Source: a virus
Reading direction: 5' to 3' (one strand)
IMG/VR virus record: IMGVR_UViG_3300025325_000035
Location: 1 to 51,564 of that record
Length of the DNA stretch: 51,564 nucleotides
Shown here: in pieces, positions 28,496 to 47,488 of the stretch
Layout of the letters: every line of letters starts with the position of its first letter
Numbering within the stretch: the first letter of the stretch is position 1
Notes under the pieces: generated by a model
What the model was told of the DNA's origin: nothing
Seen by the model: only the letters and a program-made list of their open reading frames with translations
Databases searched by the model: none
Position numbers and translations under genes: made by a program

Positions 28496-29434
28496 ATGAG
28501 CAAATCCACAATCAGCACATTCGAACTGTTCGACATCTTCCCCGATGAGGAAACGGCGAGGCAGTACTTGGAGCTTCGCCTGTGGGCCGATGGCCCGATC
28601 TGCCCGGAGTGCAAGAGCGGCGCACGTATCACTTCGCGGAAAGTCGAACGCAAAGGGTACTACCTCTGCAACGCCTGTAAAGTGGAGTTCACTGTCCGAA
28701 CCGCCACGATCTTTGAGCGGTCCCATGTTCAGCTCCATAAGTGGCTCTATGCCATGTACCTTGTTGTTACGGCTCGAAAGGGCATCTCTTCGATGCAACT
28801 GTCGAAGGAGATAGGCGTTACTCAAAAGACGGCTTGGTTCATGCTGGGCCGCCTGCGCGAAGCGTGCGGCAAAGACATGGACAAGCTGCGCGGACTGGTA
28901 GAAATTGATGAGACTTTCATCGGCGGTTTGGAGAGCAACAAGCATGAGTCCAAAAAGCTGAACATGGGACGCGGCTCCGTTGGCAAGACTGCTGTGCTCG
29001 GAATGCGTGAGCGAGGCGGTCGCACGAAGGCCATGCCGATCAAGAGCACGAGCATTGAAGAGATTCAATCTGCTATCCATGCCAATGTGGAGATCGGCTC
29101 TCACCTTTTTACCGATGAGCACGCGGCCTACAACGATTTGGACGGCCTGTTCTTTCGCGCCGACCGTGTGAACCATTCCGCGAATCAATACGTCAACGGG
29201 ATGGCCAGCACGAACGGAATTGAGAGCGTGTGGGCGGTCCTGAAACGCGGGCTGAACGGCGTCTACCACCAAGTCAGCAAGAAACACCTTGGCCGCTACG
29301 TTGACGAATTCGCCTTTCGGCTGAATGCTGGCAAAGTCTCTCGGCACACGCTGGAGCGGCTGGACAGCTTTGTGGCCGCGATAGTCGGCAAGCGGATCAC
29401 GTACAAAGAACTGACGGCGGAGGTCGGCCAATGA
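28496..29434 (+). CDS. IS1595 (ISXO2-like) transposase
   Basis: The 312-residue product has an N-terminal zinc ribbon (CPECKSG, CNACK at about 36-62) followed by the DDE domain: LVEIDETFIGG, HLFTDEHAAYNDL, TNGIESVWAVLKRGLNG and YHQVSKKHLGRYVDEFAFR. The catalytic set is intact and there are no frameshifts, so the element is probably active. Its stop overlaps the next small gene by ATGA. Confidence 0.95.
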   Translation: MSKSTISTFELFDIFPDEETARQYLELRLWADGPICPECKSGARITSRKVERKGYYLCNACKVEFTVRTATIFERSHVQLHKWLYAMYLVVTARKGISSMQLSKEIGVTQKTAWFMLGRLREACGKDMDKLRGLVEIDETFIGGLESNKHESKKLNMGRGSVGKTAVLGMRERGGRTKAMPIKSTSIEEIQSAIHANVEIGSHLFTDEHAAYNDLDGLFFRADRVNHSANQYVNGMASTNGIESVWAVLKRGLNGVYHQVSKKHLGRYVDEFAFRLNAGKVSRHTLERLDSFVAAIVGKRITYKELTAEVGQ

Positions 29435-29553: not shown

Positions 29554-29701
29554 TTGGAGTCATCTATATAAGTCCCCAATTTTTGGACTGCGGCACGATG
29601 CGGGGCCTAACCATTGCGCCTAGGGTCCGCCTATGCGGGCCACTAGCGGAGCGGTTCAGACCGTATCCATAACTCAACTAACCCATGAGAGGAAAAGACC
29701 A

Positions 29702-30484
29702 ATGCTGAACAAACACAATCTAGACATCGCGCAGTTTGCCACGAAGGAGGCACGCTACACCATGCAGGCCATTCTGGTTGCCCCGCATGAGACCATCGTC
29801 ACCGACGGCCATCGTCTGGTGCGGGTCTCGACTCCCGACATTCCGGCCGCGCAGTTCCCCAAGCCGGATGACACCTTCGCCGCATCCGACTCATTCAAAC
29901 CTTTCTTACTCCCTGCCGAAACCGCGAAGGCTATCGCCAAGGCAGTCCCGCGAAAGACCATCATCGAAGCGTTGTCTTGCATCGCGGTCGATGGCGCCCG
30001 GACAGATGCAAACGGGACAGCGCACCTCGCGGTAACGGACCTGGAAACGTTCAACCCGTTCACAGTTCGCAAGCCGGATGGCCAATTCCCGAATTACATC
30101 GCCGTCGTTCCAGACCCAGCTAAGGCCGAGCTCACTATCTCGGTAAATGCGTCATACCTGGCCGAGCTCGCCAGGGCGGCCGCCAGTTTCCAGAAAGACG
30201 GGCGCCGTGACCCCGTTCTAACCATGCGGTTTTACGGGGTAGACAAAGCATTGCGCATGGATTGCGAAAAAGACGGGCAGCAATGGTCCGCTGTGCTCAT
30301 GCCAATCCGCCATGAATCCGACCCGGAAAAGGTATGGGATCCGAATCGCAAGGCGCCGGATGCGGCTTCATTGGCTAACCAGGAACGGGAGAGGCAATTC
30401 CTGGCAGATGGTAGTATCGGCCACGTTACCCTTGATCCCGCGCGACTCGCCCGAACGGATGCGCCCGCGGCAATCGCCGCCTAA
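29702..30484 (+). CDS. Two-domain sliding-clamp-like protein
   Basis: The 260-residue frame starts at ATG 29702 behind GAGGAAAAG. It carries hallmarks of bacterial beta clamp: EARYTMQAILV with TDGHRL (34-39, domain II), GQFPNY (127-132) and a final VLMPIR (198-203), equivalent to the MPMR peptide-binding end of DnaN. The full clamp at 46358-47488 has the same words (EASRYTMNAALL, ATDGHRL, GQFPAY, VVMPMR). Domain I is absent, and a polar 57-residue tail follows. Two domains per chain could make a three-subunit ring as in PCNA, or the protein could bind clamp partners without forming a ring. Confidence 0.75.
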   Translation: MLNKHNLDIAQFATKEARYTMQAILVAPHETIVTDGHRLVRVSTPDIPAAQFPKPDDTFAASDSFKPFLLPAETAKAIAKAVPRKTIIEALSCIAVDGARTDANGTAHLAVTDLETFNPFTVRKPDGQFPNYIAVVPDPAKAELTISVNASYLAELARAAASFQKDGRRDPVLTMRFYGVDKALRMDCEKDGQQWSAVLMPIRHESDPEKVWDPNRKAPDAASLANQERERQFLADGSIGHVTLDPARLARTDAPAAIAA

Positions 30485-32278: not shown

Positions 32279-33217
32279 ATGTTTGGAACCAGAACACTCA
32301 ATCGCCGGTGGAAACTCCGCTTCATCCCGAAAGATTCCACCGAGATCCAACACCCAGACGGCCTGGGCGTCGTCTACATCTGGACCGATCCGAAAACGCG
32401 CGCCTGTGGGATCGCCTACCGCGGCCGGGCGAATAAGCCGGATTGGAATTACACCTTCCGTGATTCCGCCCGCCGATCCGCTCACATCAATGAATGGTTT
32501 GACGGCCTGGAATCGCGCAAGCTCCAGGTCGCGGAGTGGAAAGCCAAACGCGCCGCCGACCGCGGCCGCCTCGACAAGGATTATTTCTCCGCCGCCGAAA
32601 CCGCCGTTTTCGTTCGCAAAGCTCTGAAGGCTGCGTTTCCGGCCGTCAAGTTCTCGGTTACTTCCGACACCTATTCCGGCGGCGCCTCCGTGGATGTCCG
32701 CTGGACCGATGGTCCGCTCACGGAGGATGTCGACGCCATCTGCAATCTTTTCGAGGGCGCCGGGTTTGACGGCATGATTGACCTGAAGTACAGCAATAGC
32801 CATTGGCTGCTACCGAACGGGACAATTTATTTCGCGGCAACTCAGGGAACACAGGGAAGCCGCGGAACGGTCCCGGCTTGCAAAACGGAAAAGCCGCATC
32901 CCGACGCGCGATTGGTTCATCTGGGCGCCGACTTCGTACAGGCACAGCGGCATGAGTCCTGCGAGCTCATCCTAGCAGCCGCGCGGTACGTGGCCGAAAA
33001 GTGCCAACTGCCGGAGCTCCCCATTGACGAGCATGGTTGTCCTAGTGGAGCCGATGCGCAGATGCGAGTCCCTTATCGGTTGTATGTTCTGCCTGGTGCT
33101 CCACTTTCGGAGCGTGAAATAGTTGGCACTGACGAGGGGGAATGGTTCGGTCACCTGGTCTGCCAAGTTGCGCGGTGTCTGCCGGTGGACATCCTAACCG
33201 GAAAGGCGGTGGCCTAA
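32279..33217 (+). CDS. LPD29-domain phage protein
   Basis: The 312-residue product matches, at residues 110-175, the large polyvalent-protein-associated domain LPD29: VRKALKAAFPAVKFSV, SDTYSGGASVDVRWTDGP, then NLFEGAGFDGMIDL. LPD29 occurs in phage and plasmid proteins of poorly known function, often beside other small accessory genes. The C-terminal part (CPSGADAQMRVPYRLYVLPG) is unassigned. Its stop overlaps the next start by one base. Confidence 0.75.
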   Translation: MFGTRTLNRRWKLRFIPKDSTEIQHPDGLGVVYIWTDPKTRACGIAYRGRANKPDWNYTFRDSARRSAHINEWFDGLESRKLQVAEWKAKRAADRGRLDKDYFSAAETAVFVRKALKAAFPAVKFSVTSDTYSGGASVDVRWTDGPLTEDVDAICNLFEGAGFDGMIDLKYSNSHWLLPNGTIYFAATQGTQGSRGTVPACKTEKPHPDARLVHLGADFVQAQRHESCELILAAARYVAEKCQLPELPIDEHGCPSGADAQMRVPYRLYVLPGAPLSEREIVGTDEGEWFGHLVCQVARCLPVDILTGKAVA

Positions 33218-33479: not shown

Positions 33480-33986
33480 ATGACTGAACCAAAGCTGAAT
33501 ATCACGGTTGAGGAGTTGGCGCGATTTATCTTGCAACGCGCCTTTCACGGCTCTTTGTCGCTCGTTCCTGCAGTCCTGCGGCCACATCAAGCTAAGTCCA
33601 ATTGGGCGGAGGCTCTCCGCATCGCCCGCCGGATGCTGGCGTCGGATGCGCTGTACGAGGCGCTGACGAATACTAGGACCATCGTGCAGGCTCTAAAAGA
33701 TTCCTACGAGGAGACTTTGGGGGAATCATATCCTTCTGAGGTGTTGGGGCAAACAGACGAAGCCCTGGCCCTGGCCGACGGGCGAGAGGGCGGCGGAATG
33801 ACCATCACGCAGGACAAGAGCACGGCGCGACCGATGCCAGACGGCCCGAAGGTCCAGTGCGACAACTGCGGCCGGACATACCCGGAAGGGACTCTGACAA
33901 GACGCGACTCGGCCACGAGCGGGCCCGCTTGGGACTGTCCGCATTGCGGCGAGCTCTGCTTCCCGGTGGAAAGGGTTGCGGAATGA
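33480..33986 (+). CDS. Zinc-ribbon protein
   Basis: The start at ATG 33480 follows GGGGAGGAG; an in-frame ATG at 33453 with AAGGA is also possible. The product is 168 residues with a helical N-terminal part and a C-terminal zinc ribbon (CDNCGRTYPEG, CPHCGELCFPVE). It overlaps the DNA ligase start by ATGA. It may be a partner of the ligase; this is inferred from coupling only. Confidence 0.65.
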   Translation: MTEPKLNITVEELARFILQRAFHGSLSLVPAVLRPHQAKSNWAEALRIARRMLASDALYEALTNTRTIVQALKDSYEETLGESYPSEVLGQTDEALALADGREGGGMTITQDKSTARPMPDGPKVQCDNCGRTYPEGTLTRRDSATSGPAWDCPHCGELCFPVERVAE

Positions 33987-35026
33987 AAACCCAAACACTA
34001 TATTTCAAAGAAGGCGGTTCCGACAAAATCTACACCGCCAAAGTGGAGGATGATGGGACCGTGCTCACGTCCTGGGGACGCCGCGGCGGTCCGCAACAAT
34101 CGCAATCCTTCGGCCCTCTGCCGATCCCGGAGGCCGAAAAGCTGTATGACAAAAAGGTCAAGGAGAAGCTGTCAAAAGGATATCAGCCTGGAGAGGCTGG
34201 CCTGGAGCTGGTCCGCAACGGAACCACCGCGCCAGTCAACGTACCGCGACCCATGCTGCTCAATGAGATCGACCGCGATGAAGTGGAGCGGCTCATCCGG
34301 GATCCGGCCTGGTGGATGCAGGAAAAGTTCGACGGGTGCCGGATTCTCCTGGAACGTAATGGCGACGCCGTTACCGCATGGAGCCGGACCGGGAAGCCGT
34401 GCGCCGCCCTTCCGGGCGCGATAGTGGAGGCGGCGCTGACCATTCCTGCCGAGCGATTTCTGATCGACGGCGAGATCATCGGCGATACGGTTTGGGCCTT
34501 CGACCTAATTCCTGGAGCAACCAATATCCCGGACTGGGCATACGAGCTTCGCTGGATTCGATTGTCCGGACTCCTGCTGCGCTCCCCTGAATTTCCCGCA
34601 ATACGGCTGGTGCCTACCGCCCGGACGGAAAAAGAAAAGGCTGCGATGTTGGAACGAATCCAATCCAACGGCGACGAGGGCGTGGTCCTGAAAGATTCCA
34701 GCGCCCCGTATACTCCCGACCGTCCCAGCTCCGGCGGTCCCGCTCTCAAGTTCAAGTTCTTCAAAACCGCTTCCGTCATAGTGGAGGCGGCCAATACCCA
34801 GCGGAGCGTCAACGTCAAGGCCGTCTGCGGAACGCCGCTGGGCAGAGTAACCATACCGCCGAACTATCCCGTGCCAGCCGTTGGCGCGGTCTGTGAAGTT
34901 CGGTATCTGGCCATCCATCGCGGCGGCTCGCTCATCCAGCCCGTCTACCTTGGAGAAAGGAGCGACATACCGGCGGAGGAATGTACCATCGACCAGTTGC
35001 AATTCAGGTTCACAGTGGAGGCGTGA
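33983..35026 (+). CDS. ATP-dependent DNA ligase with N-terminal WGR domain
   Basis: The product is 347 residues. Residues 1-68 form a WGR domain (TLYFKEGGSDKIYTAKV, SWGRRGG). Residues 85-265 are an adenylation domain: motif I EKFDGCR with Lys 115, FLIDGEIIGDTVWAFDL, NGDEGVVLKD and LKFKFFK. The rest is a short OB-like region ending QLQFRFTVEA. It seals nicks after forming a ligase-AMP intermediate. WGR domains bind DNA in PARP-type and MolR proteins; the pairing with a ligase is unusual. Confidence 0.85.
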   Translation: MKTQTLYFKEGGSDKIYTAKVEDDGTVLTSWGRRGGPQQSQSFGPLPIPEAEKLYDKKVKEKLSKGYQPGEAGLELVRNGTTAPVNVPRPMLLNEIDRDEVERLIRDPAWWMQEKFDGCRILLERNGDAVTAWSRTGKPCAALPGAIVEAALTIPAERFLIDGEIIGDTVWAFDLIPGATNIPDWAYELRWIRLSGLLLRSPEFPAIRLVPTARTEKEKAAMLERIQSNGDEGVVLKDSSAPYTPDRPSSGGPALKFKFFKTASVIVEAANTQRSVNVKAVCGTPLGRVTIPPNYPVPAVGAVCEVRYLAIHRGGSLIQPVYLGERSDIPAEECTIDQLQFRFTVEA

Positions 35027-35808: not shown

Positions 35809-36744
35809 TCATGCTGTTTCTGCGTTGGCCACGGCCTCCGGCTGTTCCTGAATTCCAGCCAATCTGCGCTTGTACCACTCCGGAAACCCCCGCGTTGCCT
35901 GCCGCTCGATGTGCGGCCATGCCCACCGGAACAGCAACGCCCGGATCTCGGCGCCGCACTCTTCCTGGATATCCCTTTTAATCTCGGCGATCAGTGGGCC
36001 GATGTCCTGTGGTGCCATCTGTAACTGCCCCGCATCCCGGCGATGCTGCACCGCTTTGGCCCAACGCCCCTCGGAGGAATACCGCTCGCCCAGTTGCTGT
36101 AGAATGTCTCCGCTCGCCGGGTTCGATCTCTTCCACTCCTTGCCGTGAACCTCCTTAAATCGCTCCGAGACGAATTTCGCCATGAGTAACTTCTTGTCAG
36201 GTCCGAACAGGTTCCCGGCCAGCGGCTTGATGACCACGCCCTCGATCTTAGTTCCACCGAGAACGCTTTCCCGCTCCAGCCAGCCGTCCAGCATCGATGC
36301 GTCTGCCATCCCGCGAAACAGCTCTGGCACCACATCCATGCCCAGCCGCTCGGCTTCTTCCAGAATAGATTCACGGCTGGCATATTCCTCGTGCCCAGTG
36401 TTCACGTCGAACAGAATTACGTGACGCCGAGGGACGCCGCCGTAAGCCAGCGTGTTATGCTTCGGGGTTCGCAGGTACTCCCCGCGATACGTCCAACCAG
36501 GCACCAGGATGTCCTTGATCTGTTTCACCTGCTCGACCGCAGCGGAGAACATTTTCACTGTGGCGTCAGGGTCCAGCTCCTGTCCCTTGCTGCGCAACAG
36601 CAGCGTCCCGTCCCACGAAACCCCGAACGAGAACTGGCTGCCATCCACCTTCTCCTCGACCCGCACCGGATGCTCCAGCAGGCCGGCAACGGCTCGATGT
36701 CCAAGAGCGTAAATCGACGGGTAACTGTGCCAGCTATCCATCAT
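35809..36744 (-). CDS. RNA ligase (Rnl2-like nucleotidyltransferase)
   Basis: The 311-residue frame starts at ATG 36744 behind GGGAGGA. Nucleotidyltransferase motifs are intact: motif I EKVDGSQ with Lys 32, YRGEYL, VILFDVNTG, EGVVIKP and LLMAKFVSERF. The short motif set and the C-terminal helical domain fit the RNA ligase family rather than DNA ligase. Such phage enzymes often repair tRNAs cut by host defence nucleases. It overlaps the preceding small gene by ATGA. Confidence 0.82.
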   Translation of the reverse strand: MMDSWHSYPSIYALGHRAVAGLLEHPVRVEEKVDGSQFSFGVSWDGTLLLRSKGQELDPDATVKMFSAAVEQVKQIKDILVPGWTYRGEYLRTPKHNTLAYGGVPRRHVILFDVNTGHEEYASRESILEEAERLGMDVVPELFRGMADASMLDGWLERESVLGGTKIEGVVIKPLAGNLFGPDKKLLMAKFVSERFKEVHGKEWKRSNPASGDILQQLGERYSSEGRWAKAVQHRRDAGQLQMAPQDIGPLIAEIKRDIQEECGAEIRALLFRWAWPHIERQATRGFPEWYKRRLAGIQEQPEAVANAETA

Positions 36745-36992
36745 GTAGATTCCTCCCGAACCAGCAGCCCGAATTCTACATTGGCCTTGCCGGTGATGTT
36801 GAACCTGCCGATGCACCTCAGATGTATTACTGAGTACATCCCATCGGCATCATTGGCAGTCTCGATTCTGAATCCCAGGACGCATCCCTTCAGGTCGATC
36901 TCGGAGCCATCTTCGCGTTGTAGAAATATCCTGGCTGCGCGAAGGCTCGGCTCATTGCATTCGATTCGAACTATCGGGTAAGTTTTTGTCAT
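36741..36992 (-). CDS. Unknown 83-residue beta-rich protein
   Basis: The product begins TKTYPIVRIECNEPSLRAAR and alternates short strands (DLKGCVLGFRIET, YSVIHLRCIGRFNI). It is not recognised. It is coupled by ATGA overlaps to the hydrolase gene before it and the RNA ligase gene after it. Confidence 0.65.
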   Translation of the reverse strand: MTKTYPIVRIECNEPSLRAARIFLQREDGSEIDLKGCVLGFRIETANDADGMYSVIHLRCIGRFNITGKANVEFGLLVREEST

Positions 36993-41518: not shown

Positions 41519-41668
41519 TTAATGTTTCTTTCTCTTCTTTGCTTTCGGCTTCTCGCGGTTTAGCTCCGCAAGCACCTGTTTCAAGGCCTTCCGTACAGGT
41601 GTCGGAAATAACTTCCGAACTAATTCCTTGTCCGTCATCTCTGACACTGGTTTTTTTCGTCTAGGCAT
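41519..41668 (-). CDS. Small basic IS accessory protein
   Basis: This 49-residue frame starts head-to-head with the transposase (its ATG overlaps the first possible transposase ATG). It is very basic at both ends (PRRKKPVSEMTDKELVRKLF, NREKPKAKKRKKH). It is similar in kind to the 40-residue gene of the first IS1595 element, though the sequence is not clearly related. Confidence 0.55.
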   Translation of the reverse strand: MPRRKKPVSEMTDKELVRKLFPTPVRKALKQVLAELNREKPKAKKRKKH

Positions 41669-41681
41669 GGAGAACAATCCT

Positions 41682-42575
41682 ATGGTTTCTAAACAAATGA
41701 CTTTGCCGATCCTGATGGAAGCGTTTGATACGGATGAAGAGTGCCGTGCCGCGCTGGAAGGTTTGAGATGGCCCGATGGCGTGCGGTGCCTGCGGTGCGA
41801 CTCCGACAAAATCTCGCGCATTGCTACGCGCAAGCAGTTCGATTGCGACTCTTGCCGCTACCGCTTCTCTGTTACGACTGCCACGATCTTTCACGATTCT
41901 CACTTGCCTCTGCCGAAGTGGTTTATGGCGATTCTCCTGATGTGCGAAGCGAAGAAAGGAATTTCCGCGAATCAGATGAAGCGCACACTTGGCGTGGCGA
42001 TGAAAACAGCGTGGTATCTCTGCCATCGCATCCGCGAATCCATGAACGAAATGAATCCAACGCCACTTGAGGGAACGATAGAAGTTGACGAGACATACAT
42101 TGGCGGCAAGGCGCATGGAGTTGGGCGCGGTAATTATCGCGATAGCAAAGCAATGGTCCTTGCGGCACTCCAGCGCAAAGGTGATCTCCGGATTACGACT
42201 GGCCAGAGAAATGATCGTGAAACCCTGCACGGCTTCATCCGCAAGAATGCCCCGAACCCATCCCGCATAATGACGGATGAGTGGCAAGCCTACAGAGGAA
42301 TTGCGGATCACGATACGACGCATGAAACCGTCCAGCACAGCGCGAAAGAATACGTTCGTGGAGACGTGCATACTAACAGCGTCGAAGGCGCATTCGGCTT
42401 GTTCAAGCGTTCGATTGTTGGCTCTTTCCATCAAGTGTCCCACAAGCACCTTGACCGCTACTTAGATGAATTTGAATTCCGCTATAACAACCGGAGGAAT
42501 CCTTACCTCTTCCGCGATACCCTGATGAAGTTGGTTTCAGCACCAAAAATGGAATACAAGGAACTAATCGCGTAA
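41682..42575 (+). CDS. IS1595-family transposase
   Basis: I prefer ATG 41682 (297 residues), about 9 bases after GGAG; ATG 41667 is also in frame. It has a zinc ribbon (CLRCDSD, CDSCRYRF), then DDE motifs: GTIEVDETYIGGKAHG, IMTDEWQAYRGI, TNSVEGAFGLFKRSIVG and FHQVSHKHLDRYLDEFEFRY. It is intact. It converges with the passenger gene, with a 12-base overlap of ends. Confidence 0.94.
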   Translation: MVSKQMTLPILMEAFDTDEECRAALEGLRWPDGVRCLRCDSDKISRIATRKQFDCDSCRYRFSVTTATIFHDSHLPLPKWFMAILLMCEAKKGISANQMKRTLGVAMKTAWYLCHRIRESMNEMNPTPLEGTIEVDETYIGGKAHGVGRGNYRDSKAMVLAALQRKGDLRITTGQRNDRETLHGFIRKNAPNPSRIMTDEWQAYRGIADHDTTHETVQHSAKEYVRGDVHTNSVEGAFGLFKRSIVGSFHQVSHKHLDRYLDEFEFRYNNRRNPYLFRDTLMKLVSAPKMEYKELIA

Positions 42576-46357: not shown

Positions 46358-47488
46358 TCACACCCGCATCGGCATCACGACATACCGCCCGGAATCGTCC
46401 CCGGCAATGCGGAACTCCGCCGCCGACTGCTCGTCCTTGATCCGCACTTCCACGCGCTGCTCTGGAACGCCGTCCCGTCCGGCATTCGGATTGTGGTTGG
46501 CTTCCAGAAAGTCGCTGACGTATTTCCAGTTGAATCCAATCTCGGCGGGCTTGCCGGAGTATTCGGCTTCCAGCGGCACGGTAGCCTCGAATGCCTCGCC
46601 ATGCGCATGGATCGTCAACTCGCCCGTCGCGACAGAAAACTTCACCGCGCAACTCCGCTCGTTGGAAAACATCCCCGCAAGGCGCAGCCCGGAGCGCAGC
46701 GCCTCCAGCGGCGTCGTGGCTACCAGCCCATTCGACTTCGGTAGCACCGCTTCATACGCCGGAAACTGCCCGGGCAGTTTGCGCGACAGCAACTCCCGAT
46801 GCCCGATCGAGAAGCCCAGATGATTCTCATCGGAGCCGAAGCGGAGTTTCTCGTCTGGATCCGTGTTATCGCCCAGGATCGCGAGCAGCCTCGCCGCCGC
46901 CCTGGCCGGCAGCAGCGCGCGCAGCTCCGCACCTTCGTAAGCCGCGCGGGCCCAGCTCAGGCGGTGGCCGTCGGTGGCCACCATCACGAGCCCGGATTGA
47001 TCCACCGTCAGCAACGCCGCGTTCATGGTGTATCGAGAGGCTTCCGTAGAAATGGCAAACACCACCCGCCCGATCAGCCCGGCAAATACGTCTGGACTGA
47101 ACTCATGCGTGGCCGGCGGCATCTCCGGCGGTTTAGGAAATTGCTCGCAGTCGAGCCCGCTGAGACGCACGCGATCTTTGTCGGCAGAAAGATTGAACTG
47201 CCGCCCATCGCCTTTCTGTGATTTGACGTGGATGAGGTCGCCGGAAACCGTCGCGACGTACTGCGCCAGTTTCTTGCCCGGCAGGCAGCAGCTCCCCTCC
47301 GCGCGCACCTCCGCGGGACACGTCGCTCGCAGCGCAATCTCCAGGTCCGTGGCGCGCAACTCGATCTTGCCTTTGGCGGCGTTGATGAAAATATTGCCCA
47401 GCGCCGGGATGGTGGTTTTGTTTTCCAGCACCCCAGAGAGCAGTTTCAACTCGCGTAACAGGTCGTCTCGCTTGACTGTGAATTCCAT
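46358..47488 (-). CDS. dnaN: DNA polymerase III beta subunit (sliding clamp)
   Basis: ATG 47488 follows AAGGAG (8-base spacer), giving 376 residues, the full three-domain length. Landmarks are FTVKRDDLLRELKLLSGVLE, LRATDLEIALRA, EASRYTMNAALL with ATDGHRL, GQFPAYEAVLPK and the C-terminal VVMPMR. It encircles DNA and tethers the polymerase. No phage polymerase is seen here, so it presumably serves host Pol III on phage DNA, or replaces the host clamp. Confidence 0.93.
   Translation of the reverse strand: MEFTVKRDDLLRELKLLSGVLENKTTIPALGNIFINAAKGKIELRATDLEIALRATCPAEVRAEGSCCLPGKKLAQYVATVSGDLIHVKSQKGDGRQFNLSADKDRVRLSGLDCEQFPKPPEMPPATHEFSPDVFAGLIGRVVFAISTEASRYTMNAALLTVDQSGLVMVATDGHRLSWARAAYEGAELRALLPARAAARLLAILGDNTDPDEKLRFGSDENHLGFSIGHRELLSRKLPGQFPAYEAVLPKSNGLVATTPLEALRSGLRLAGMFSNERSCAVKFSVATGELTIHAHGEAFEATVPLEAEYSGKPAEIGFNWKYVSDFLEANHNPNAGRDGVPEQRVEVRIKDEQSAAEFRIAGDDSGRYVVMPMRV

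Follow-up and report, generated by a model that had tools for sequence, protein, structure and literature searches.

A short clamp-like protein of three half-domain modules, encoded together with a full DnaN in one phage contig, keeps the peptide pocket and lacks the dimer-interface segments of the sliding clamp

Introduction

The UV-inducible beta* of Escherichia coli is a shorter product of dnaN without domain I. The short clamp-like protein described herein resembles beta* as a clamp form without domain I, while in beta* both other domains (II and III) are intact and the protein does not come from a phage gene of its own. PCNA and T4 gp45 share with it the fold of the sliding clamp superfamily, but are trimeric rings built from chains of two complete domains. 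The DnaN chain consists of three domains, each made of two half-domain modules, which we name M1 to M6 in this report. The dimer interface of the beta clamp includes I78, R103 and F106 of domain I and I272, L273, E298 and E304 of the N-terminal half of domain III, and the E. coli clamp variant I272A/L273A is monomeric (PMC11139829). Among phage proteins acting on the clamp network, the inhibitor Gp168 of phage Twort binds the clamp and blocks its DNA channel (PMC11139829); in contrast to Gp168, the protein described herein copies the clamp's own pocket. A 209-aa protein of phage AH2, gp20, has been published as a beta subunit (PMC3483164).

The short clamps of the PHROGs family phrog_3007, mostly 180-225 aa in length, carry M3 and M6 without M5 or domain I, and their peptide pocket is largely conserved. 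The protein analyzed in this study shares M3 and M6, the lack of M5 and the conserved pocket with them, but differs in that its middle module is M1-like and includes a helix, its N-terminus starts with MLNKHNL and its tail is long; furthermore, its phage also has a full DnaN, and its group falls among the full DnaNs on the tree, although a single clade of both short groups was not rejected. Its modules are homologous to those of DnaN, both E. coli beta and that of the same phage, and the peptide pocket is the same as theirs, whereas it carries three modules instead of six, lacks the dimer-interface segments and is left blank by Pfam. In the literature on truncated, monomeric or decoy clamps, we found nothing on the family of short clamps. 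New in this study are the description of the module structure, the divergent subfamily starting with MLNKHNL and, among the sampled records, the occurrence of a short clamp together with a full one.

The gene and its start site

The window, i.e., the whole stretch of DNA analyzed (IMGVR_UViG_3300025325_000035, 51,564 nucleotides), carries the following features of the two clamp genes.

29687-29693 (+): RBS-like GAGAGGA, 8 bases before the ATG (read from the sequence)
29702-30484 (+): gene of the short clamp-like protein, 260 codons and a stop codon (intact ORF by translation, homologue with the same start, DnaN profile match, phrog_3007)
29702-29842 (+): module A, residues 1-47, corresponding to M3, first half of domain II (hhalign)
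29897-30079 (+): middle module B, residues 66-126, with the M1-like sequence TIxxAL...TDLE (hhalign, shuffles)
30074-30115 (+): PDGQFPNYIAVVPD motif, residues 125-138, corresponding to the end of DnaN domain II (M4 match)
30128-30313 (+): module C, residues 143-204, corresponding to M6, last half of domain III, with MPIR at its end (hhalign)
30314-30481 (+): C-terminal tail, 56 residues (56-57 after MPIR), unconserved among relatives by alignment
46358-47488 (-): full-length phage DnaN with domains I, II and III (Pfam, phrog_947)

The coding part for the 260 aa covers 29702-30481 (+). The nearest relative, a protein of another viral contig (L001), has the same MLNKHNL start and shares 49% identity over residues 1-203, and contigs L003, L004 and L005 yielded two more distinct relatives, both with the MLNKHNL start. 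Since this start is common to the relatives, we placed the start at 29702, and the upstream ATG at 29633 was ruled out for the same reason. The RBS-like GAGAGGA further supports the start at 29702. Two IS1595-type (ISXO2-like) transposase genes of about 36% mutual identity are present in the contig, one at 28496-29434 (+), directly upstream of the short clamp gene, and the other at 41628-42575 (+). The possibility that the gene was cut down by the upstream IS1595 element was ruled out, because the L001 homologue begins identically.

On the downstream side is a gene for a protein with an LPD29 large-polyvalent-protein domain (32279-33217, +). A gene with the N-terminus KLNITVEELAR, located at 33480-33986 (+) herein and at 6998-7468 in L001 (36% identity), is the only other neighbour that we found to be shared between the two contigs. 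The replication genes of the contig comprise those for a DnaB-like helicase, a helicase loader, an initiator and its own DnaN. Two ligases are also encoded in the same phage, an ATP-dependent DNA ligase carrying a WGR domain at its N-terminus (33965-35026, +; PF05406 and PF01068) and an RNA ligase (35809-36762, -; PF09414 and phrog_548).

Derivation from a DnaN-type clamp

The short clamp-like protein is derived from a DnaN-type clamp. Against a profile of 42 DnaNs, it gave a profile-profile probability of 99.6 with E 3.3e-24, far above chance, and it carries the DnaN landmarks TDGHRL, DGxFPxY and MPIR. In the PHROGs search, it matched phrog_3007 over essentially the whole length (E 1.2e-16, positions 18-187 of the 190-position profile) and also the clamp family phrog_947 (E 1.5e-7). 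The Pfam search returned no family at E <= 10, PCNA and gp45 included, and the L001 relative reached 12.4 bits against PF02767, under the curated cut-off of 27. Sequence matches to solved structures were weak (best E 0.007), all of them beta clamps. A pattern search with TDGHRLVRV detected, beyond L001, full clamps only. The identity of phrog_3007 as a RusA resolvase, as labeled in the database, was rejected: Pfam detected no RusA domain in the short clamp-like protein, and the label is wrong because the phrog_3007 profile repeatedly picks up DnaN, with high significance, in one host genome after another. The separate DnaN of the same phage matched all three Pfam domains of the clamp (PF00712, 8.7e-21; PF02767, 4e-14; PF02768, 8e-12) as well as phrog_947 (5.8e-63).

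AlphaFold prediction with an alignment of 4 sequences reached pLDDT 33.5, and that with an alignment of 35 sequences, including viral DnaN fragments, reached pLDDT 71 and pTM 0.61. In the latter model, modules A (H4-12, E22-26, E30-35 and E39-43) and C (pLDDT about 90) were the better predicted, while the middle module was poor, with low confidence. The top Foldseek matches of this model were all beta clamps (E 4.6e-4 to 8.7e-4), followed at lower rank by PCNA chains. The model supports the clamp fold, although this support is not independent of the sequence evidence, given the DnaN fragments in the alignment.

Module composition

The modules were assigned by module-wise profile comparison with hhalign between the short clamp-like protein and the DnaN modules. 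Module A (residues 1-50 compared) matched M3 with a probability of 98.3, against at most 1.3 for the other modules. The body of module B matched M1 (90.4) rather than M4 (11.6), and its score against M1 (33.0) was above the maximum of 15.5 obtained over 120 column shuffles; the M1 hallmark TIPAL...TDLE is present in the L001 relative and partly in the short clamp-like protein. When module B was extended to residue 140, thus including the M4 end (DGxFPNY), the match to M4 rose to 96.8. Whole-length alignments did not distinguish between M5 and M6 as the origin of module C, but the module-wise comparison (residues 138-206) pointed to M6 (94.8) and not to M5 (0.9). M2 and M5 had no match, leaving three modules versus six in DnaN. 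For phrog_3007, the main short family, the probabilities were 99.1 for M3, 94.0 for M4 and 98.5 for M6, and M5 was absent. Compared with this M3-M4-M6 order, the short clamp-like protein has M3 and M6, and between them an M1-like body with an M4 end. As judged from these profiles, the two kinds of short clamp both lack M5 and M2, and each corresponds to 1.5 domains.

The original prediction, made from the sequence of this locus, described a clamp relative next to a full DnaN, as a two-domain chain that lacks domain I, keeps the landmarks of domains II and III and ends with MPIR. Both the relationship to clamps, with no unrelated family assigned and a predicted fold matching beta clamps, and the presence of the full DnaN held true, while the two full domains turned out to be three half-domain modules. 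As to the landmarks, all three are present, but the N-terminal half of domain III is missing; MPIR is also present (residues 200-203), but 57 residues follow it; and most of domain I is indeed missing, except that the middle module is M1-like.

Peptide pocket and dimer interface

All the interface positions listed above fall, after alignment, in the segments missing from the short clamp-like protein. In contrast, the pocket for clamp-binding motifs is built from M3, the end of M4 and M6, i.e., the modules that are kept. On the basis of the pocket residue list in a review (PMC11139829), the pocket residues are R18, M21, T34, G36, H37, R38 and L39 in module A, P130, A134 and V135 in the PDGQFPNYIAVVPD motif, and N149, Y152, V198, M200, P201, I202 and R203 in module C. 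A total of 14 of the 17 are identical to E. coli, compared with 14 of the 50 other positions in the same blocks (Fisher p 1.3e-4), and 16 of the 17 are identical to the DnaN of the same phage, which is the sole DnaN among 42 that shares both M155 and A246 with the short protein. This likeness may indicate shared ligands, shared descent or both. Among 32 short proteins, R152, G174, P242 and M362 were invariant, and T172 and Y323 were kept in 31. The retention of the pocket partly reflects general conservation, since pocket residues rank with the most conserved positions of DnaNs in general.

Possible modes of action

We propose, with about an even chance of being correct, that the short protein is a ring-less clamp derivative that binds proteins carrying clamp-binding motifs off DNA. 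In this proposal, the three half-domain modules would keep the pocket for clamp-binding motifs of the QLxLF type, while the surfaces for ring closure, both the head (domain I) and the tail (N-terminal half of domain III), would have been lost, and the protein would most likely be a monomer or a non-ring oligomer. Its targets would be host proteins of replication and repair that carry clamp-binding motifs, captured off DNA in competition with both the clamp of the host and the DnaN of the phage, or redistributed between the two. The ligands are probably host proteins, because the window yielded neither an A-family polymerase nor a Pol III alpha and the phage proteins examined gave no strong match to the canonical clamp-binding motif. 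As partners, the DNA ligase, which has no canonical motif, and the other phage proteins examined were rejected, with two loose matches against 2.4 expected. Competition for clamp-binding proteins, one of the roles envisaged in the original prediction, gains support from the sequence comparison in that the peptide pocket is what is conserved. A simple decoy against the host is disfavoured, since a pocket matched to that of the phage DnaN would compete with the phage's own clamp too; this suggests partitioning or timing of partners instead.

The short protein could also touch DNA as a monomer or in an alternative assembly. It might be a non-encircling processivity factor that, in the way of herpesvirus UL42, would bind DNA directly as a monomer or small oligomer and tether a polymerase. 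The related protein of BcepC6B is encoded between the genes for a DNA polymerase and an endonuclease, and phage AH2 encodes the 209-aa beta-like protein together with a polymerase (PMC3483164), but the window includes a full DnaN already and neither of the above polymerases, and the core has no net positive charge (24 K+R and 25 D+E), so we consider this role unlikely. Because the number of modules is odd, module C, which is confidently predicted, has no M5 to pair with as it normally would; two chains might thus bring their unpaired M6 modules together to complete a domain III-like unit in a symmetric non-ring dimer, or in an assembly with the phage's DnaN. We regard such pairing as quite unlikely.

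A trimeric ring like PCNA, the other role originally envisaged, has in its favour the core of about 205 aa, near the length of T4 gp45, and the PCNA chains detected by Foldseek below the beta clamps. Such a ring needs two complete domains per chain, that is four modules, whereas the short protein has three modules or 1.5 domains, both interface faces of beta are missing and Pfam gave no match to PCNA or gp45; the trimer is therefore very improbable. No more probable is a decaying, functionless fragment of a clamp gene: half of the clamp is missing and some relatives (L003 and BcepC6B) lack MPxR, but the ORF is intact, the start is conserved, most relatives keep the same architecture and pocket at 29-49% identity, and the related family is present in hundreds of viral contigs.

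Distribution and origin of short clamps

Short clamps built in this way are common, and databases already include them. Scanning identified at least 353 relatives of the main short family, and all 80 of these that were examined have ORFs of 178-230 aa. A direct tblastn search of isolate phages with the short clamp-like protein gave no match, and the isolate-phage members were reached only through phrog_3007 matches in host genomes; the first genome scan for relatives and a scan for relatives of P0002 also found none. Members of the family in isolate phages include QAY18001.1 of Pseudoalteromonas phage C7, S141_43 of Shewanella phage 1/41 and the "DNA clamp protein" of Vibrio phage R19R. The labels given in isolate phages are DNA polymerase III beta subunit, DNA clamp protein, RusA-like resolvase and hypothetical protein, and the annotation of Bcep781 gp15 reads as a beta subunit fragment.

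No domain-I clamp scored over the cut-off in the 50 viral contigs that carry a short clamp of the main family, many of which may be fragments, in 9 isolate phages or in 4 contigs of close relatives. The combination of a short clamp and a full clamp was thus found only in IMGVR_UViG_3300025325_000035, and in 0 of the 63 other records checked, many of them possibly fragments. On a tree of 115 columns, the main short family formed one clade (99/99), while the MLNKHNL group (100/100) was placed among the full DnaNs. This tree weakly favours an independent origin of the MLNKHNL subfamily, but a single common clade for both short groups was not rejected (p-AU 0.24).

It is possible, though doubtful, that a ring-less pocket protein arose, perhaps in two independent events (phrog_3007 and MLNKHNL), to capture partners off DNA, and that when paired with a full clamp of matched pocket it partitions the replication proteins. 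If this is true, a widespread phage family, mislabelled as a resolvase or an ordinary clamp subunit, would represent a natural, genetically encoded mimic of the sliding clamp pocket, in which partner binding is separated from DNA encirclement. Such a mimic would be a new means by which phages take over host replication, and drugs against the clamp pocket could be modelled on it as a natural example.

The label of RusA-like Holliday junction resolvase is wrongly carried by phrog_3007 members in RefSeq phage records, for example NC_004333, NC_070824 and NC_025458, and was met in the records L166, L169, L171 and L173. In Salmonella phage Fels-1 (L174), the short clamp at 2211-2845 appears to be divided between two annotated genes that overlap, possibly because of a frameshift.
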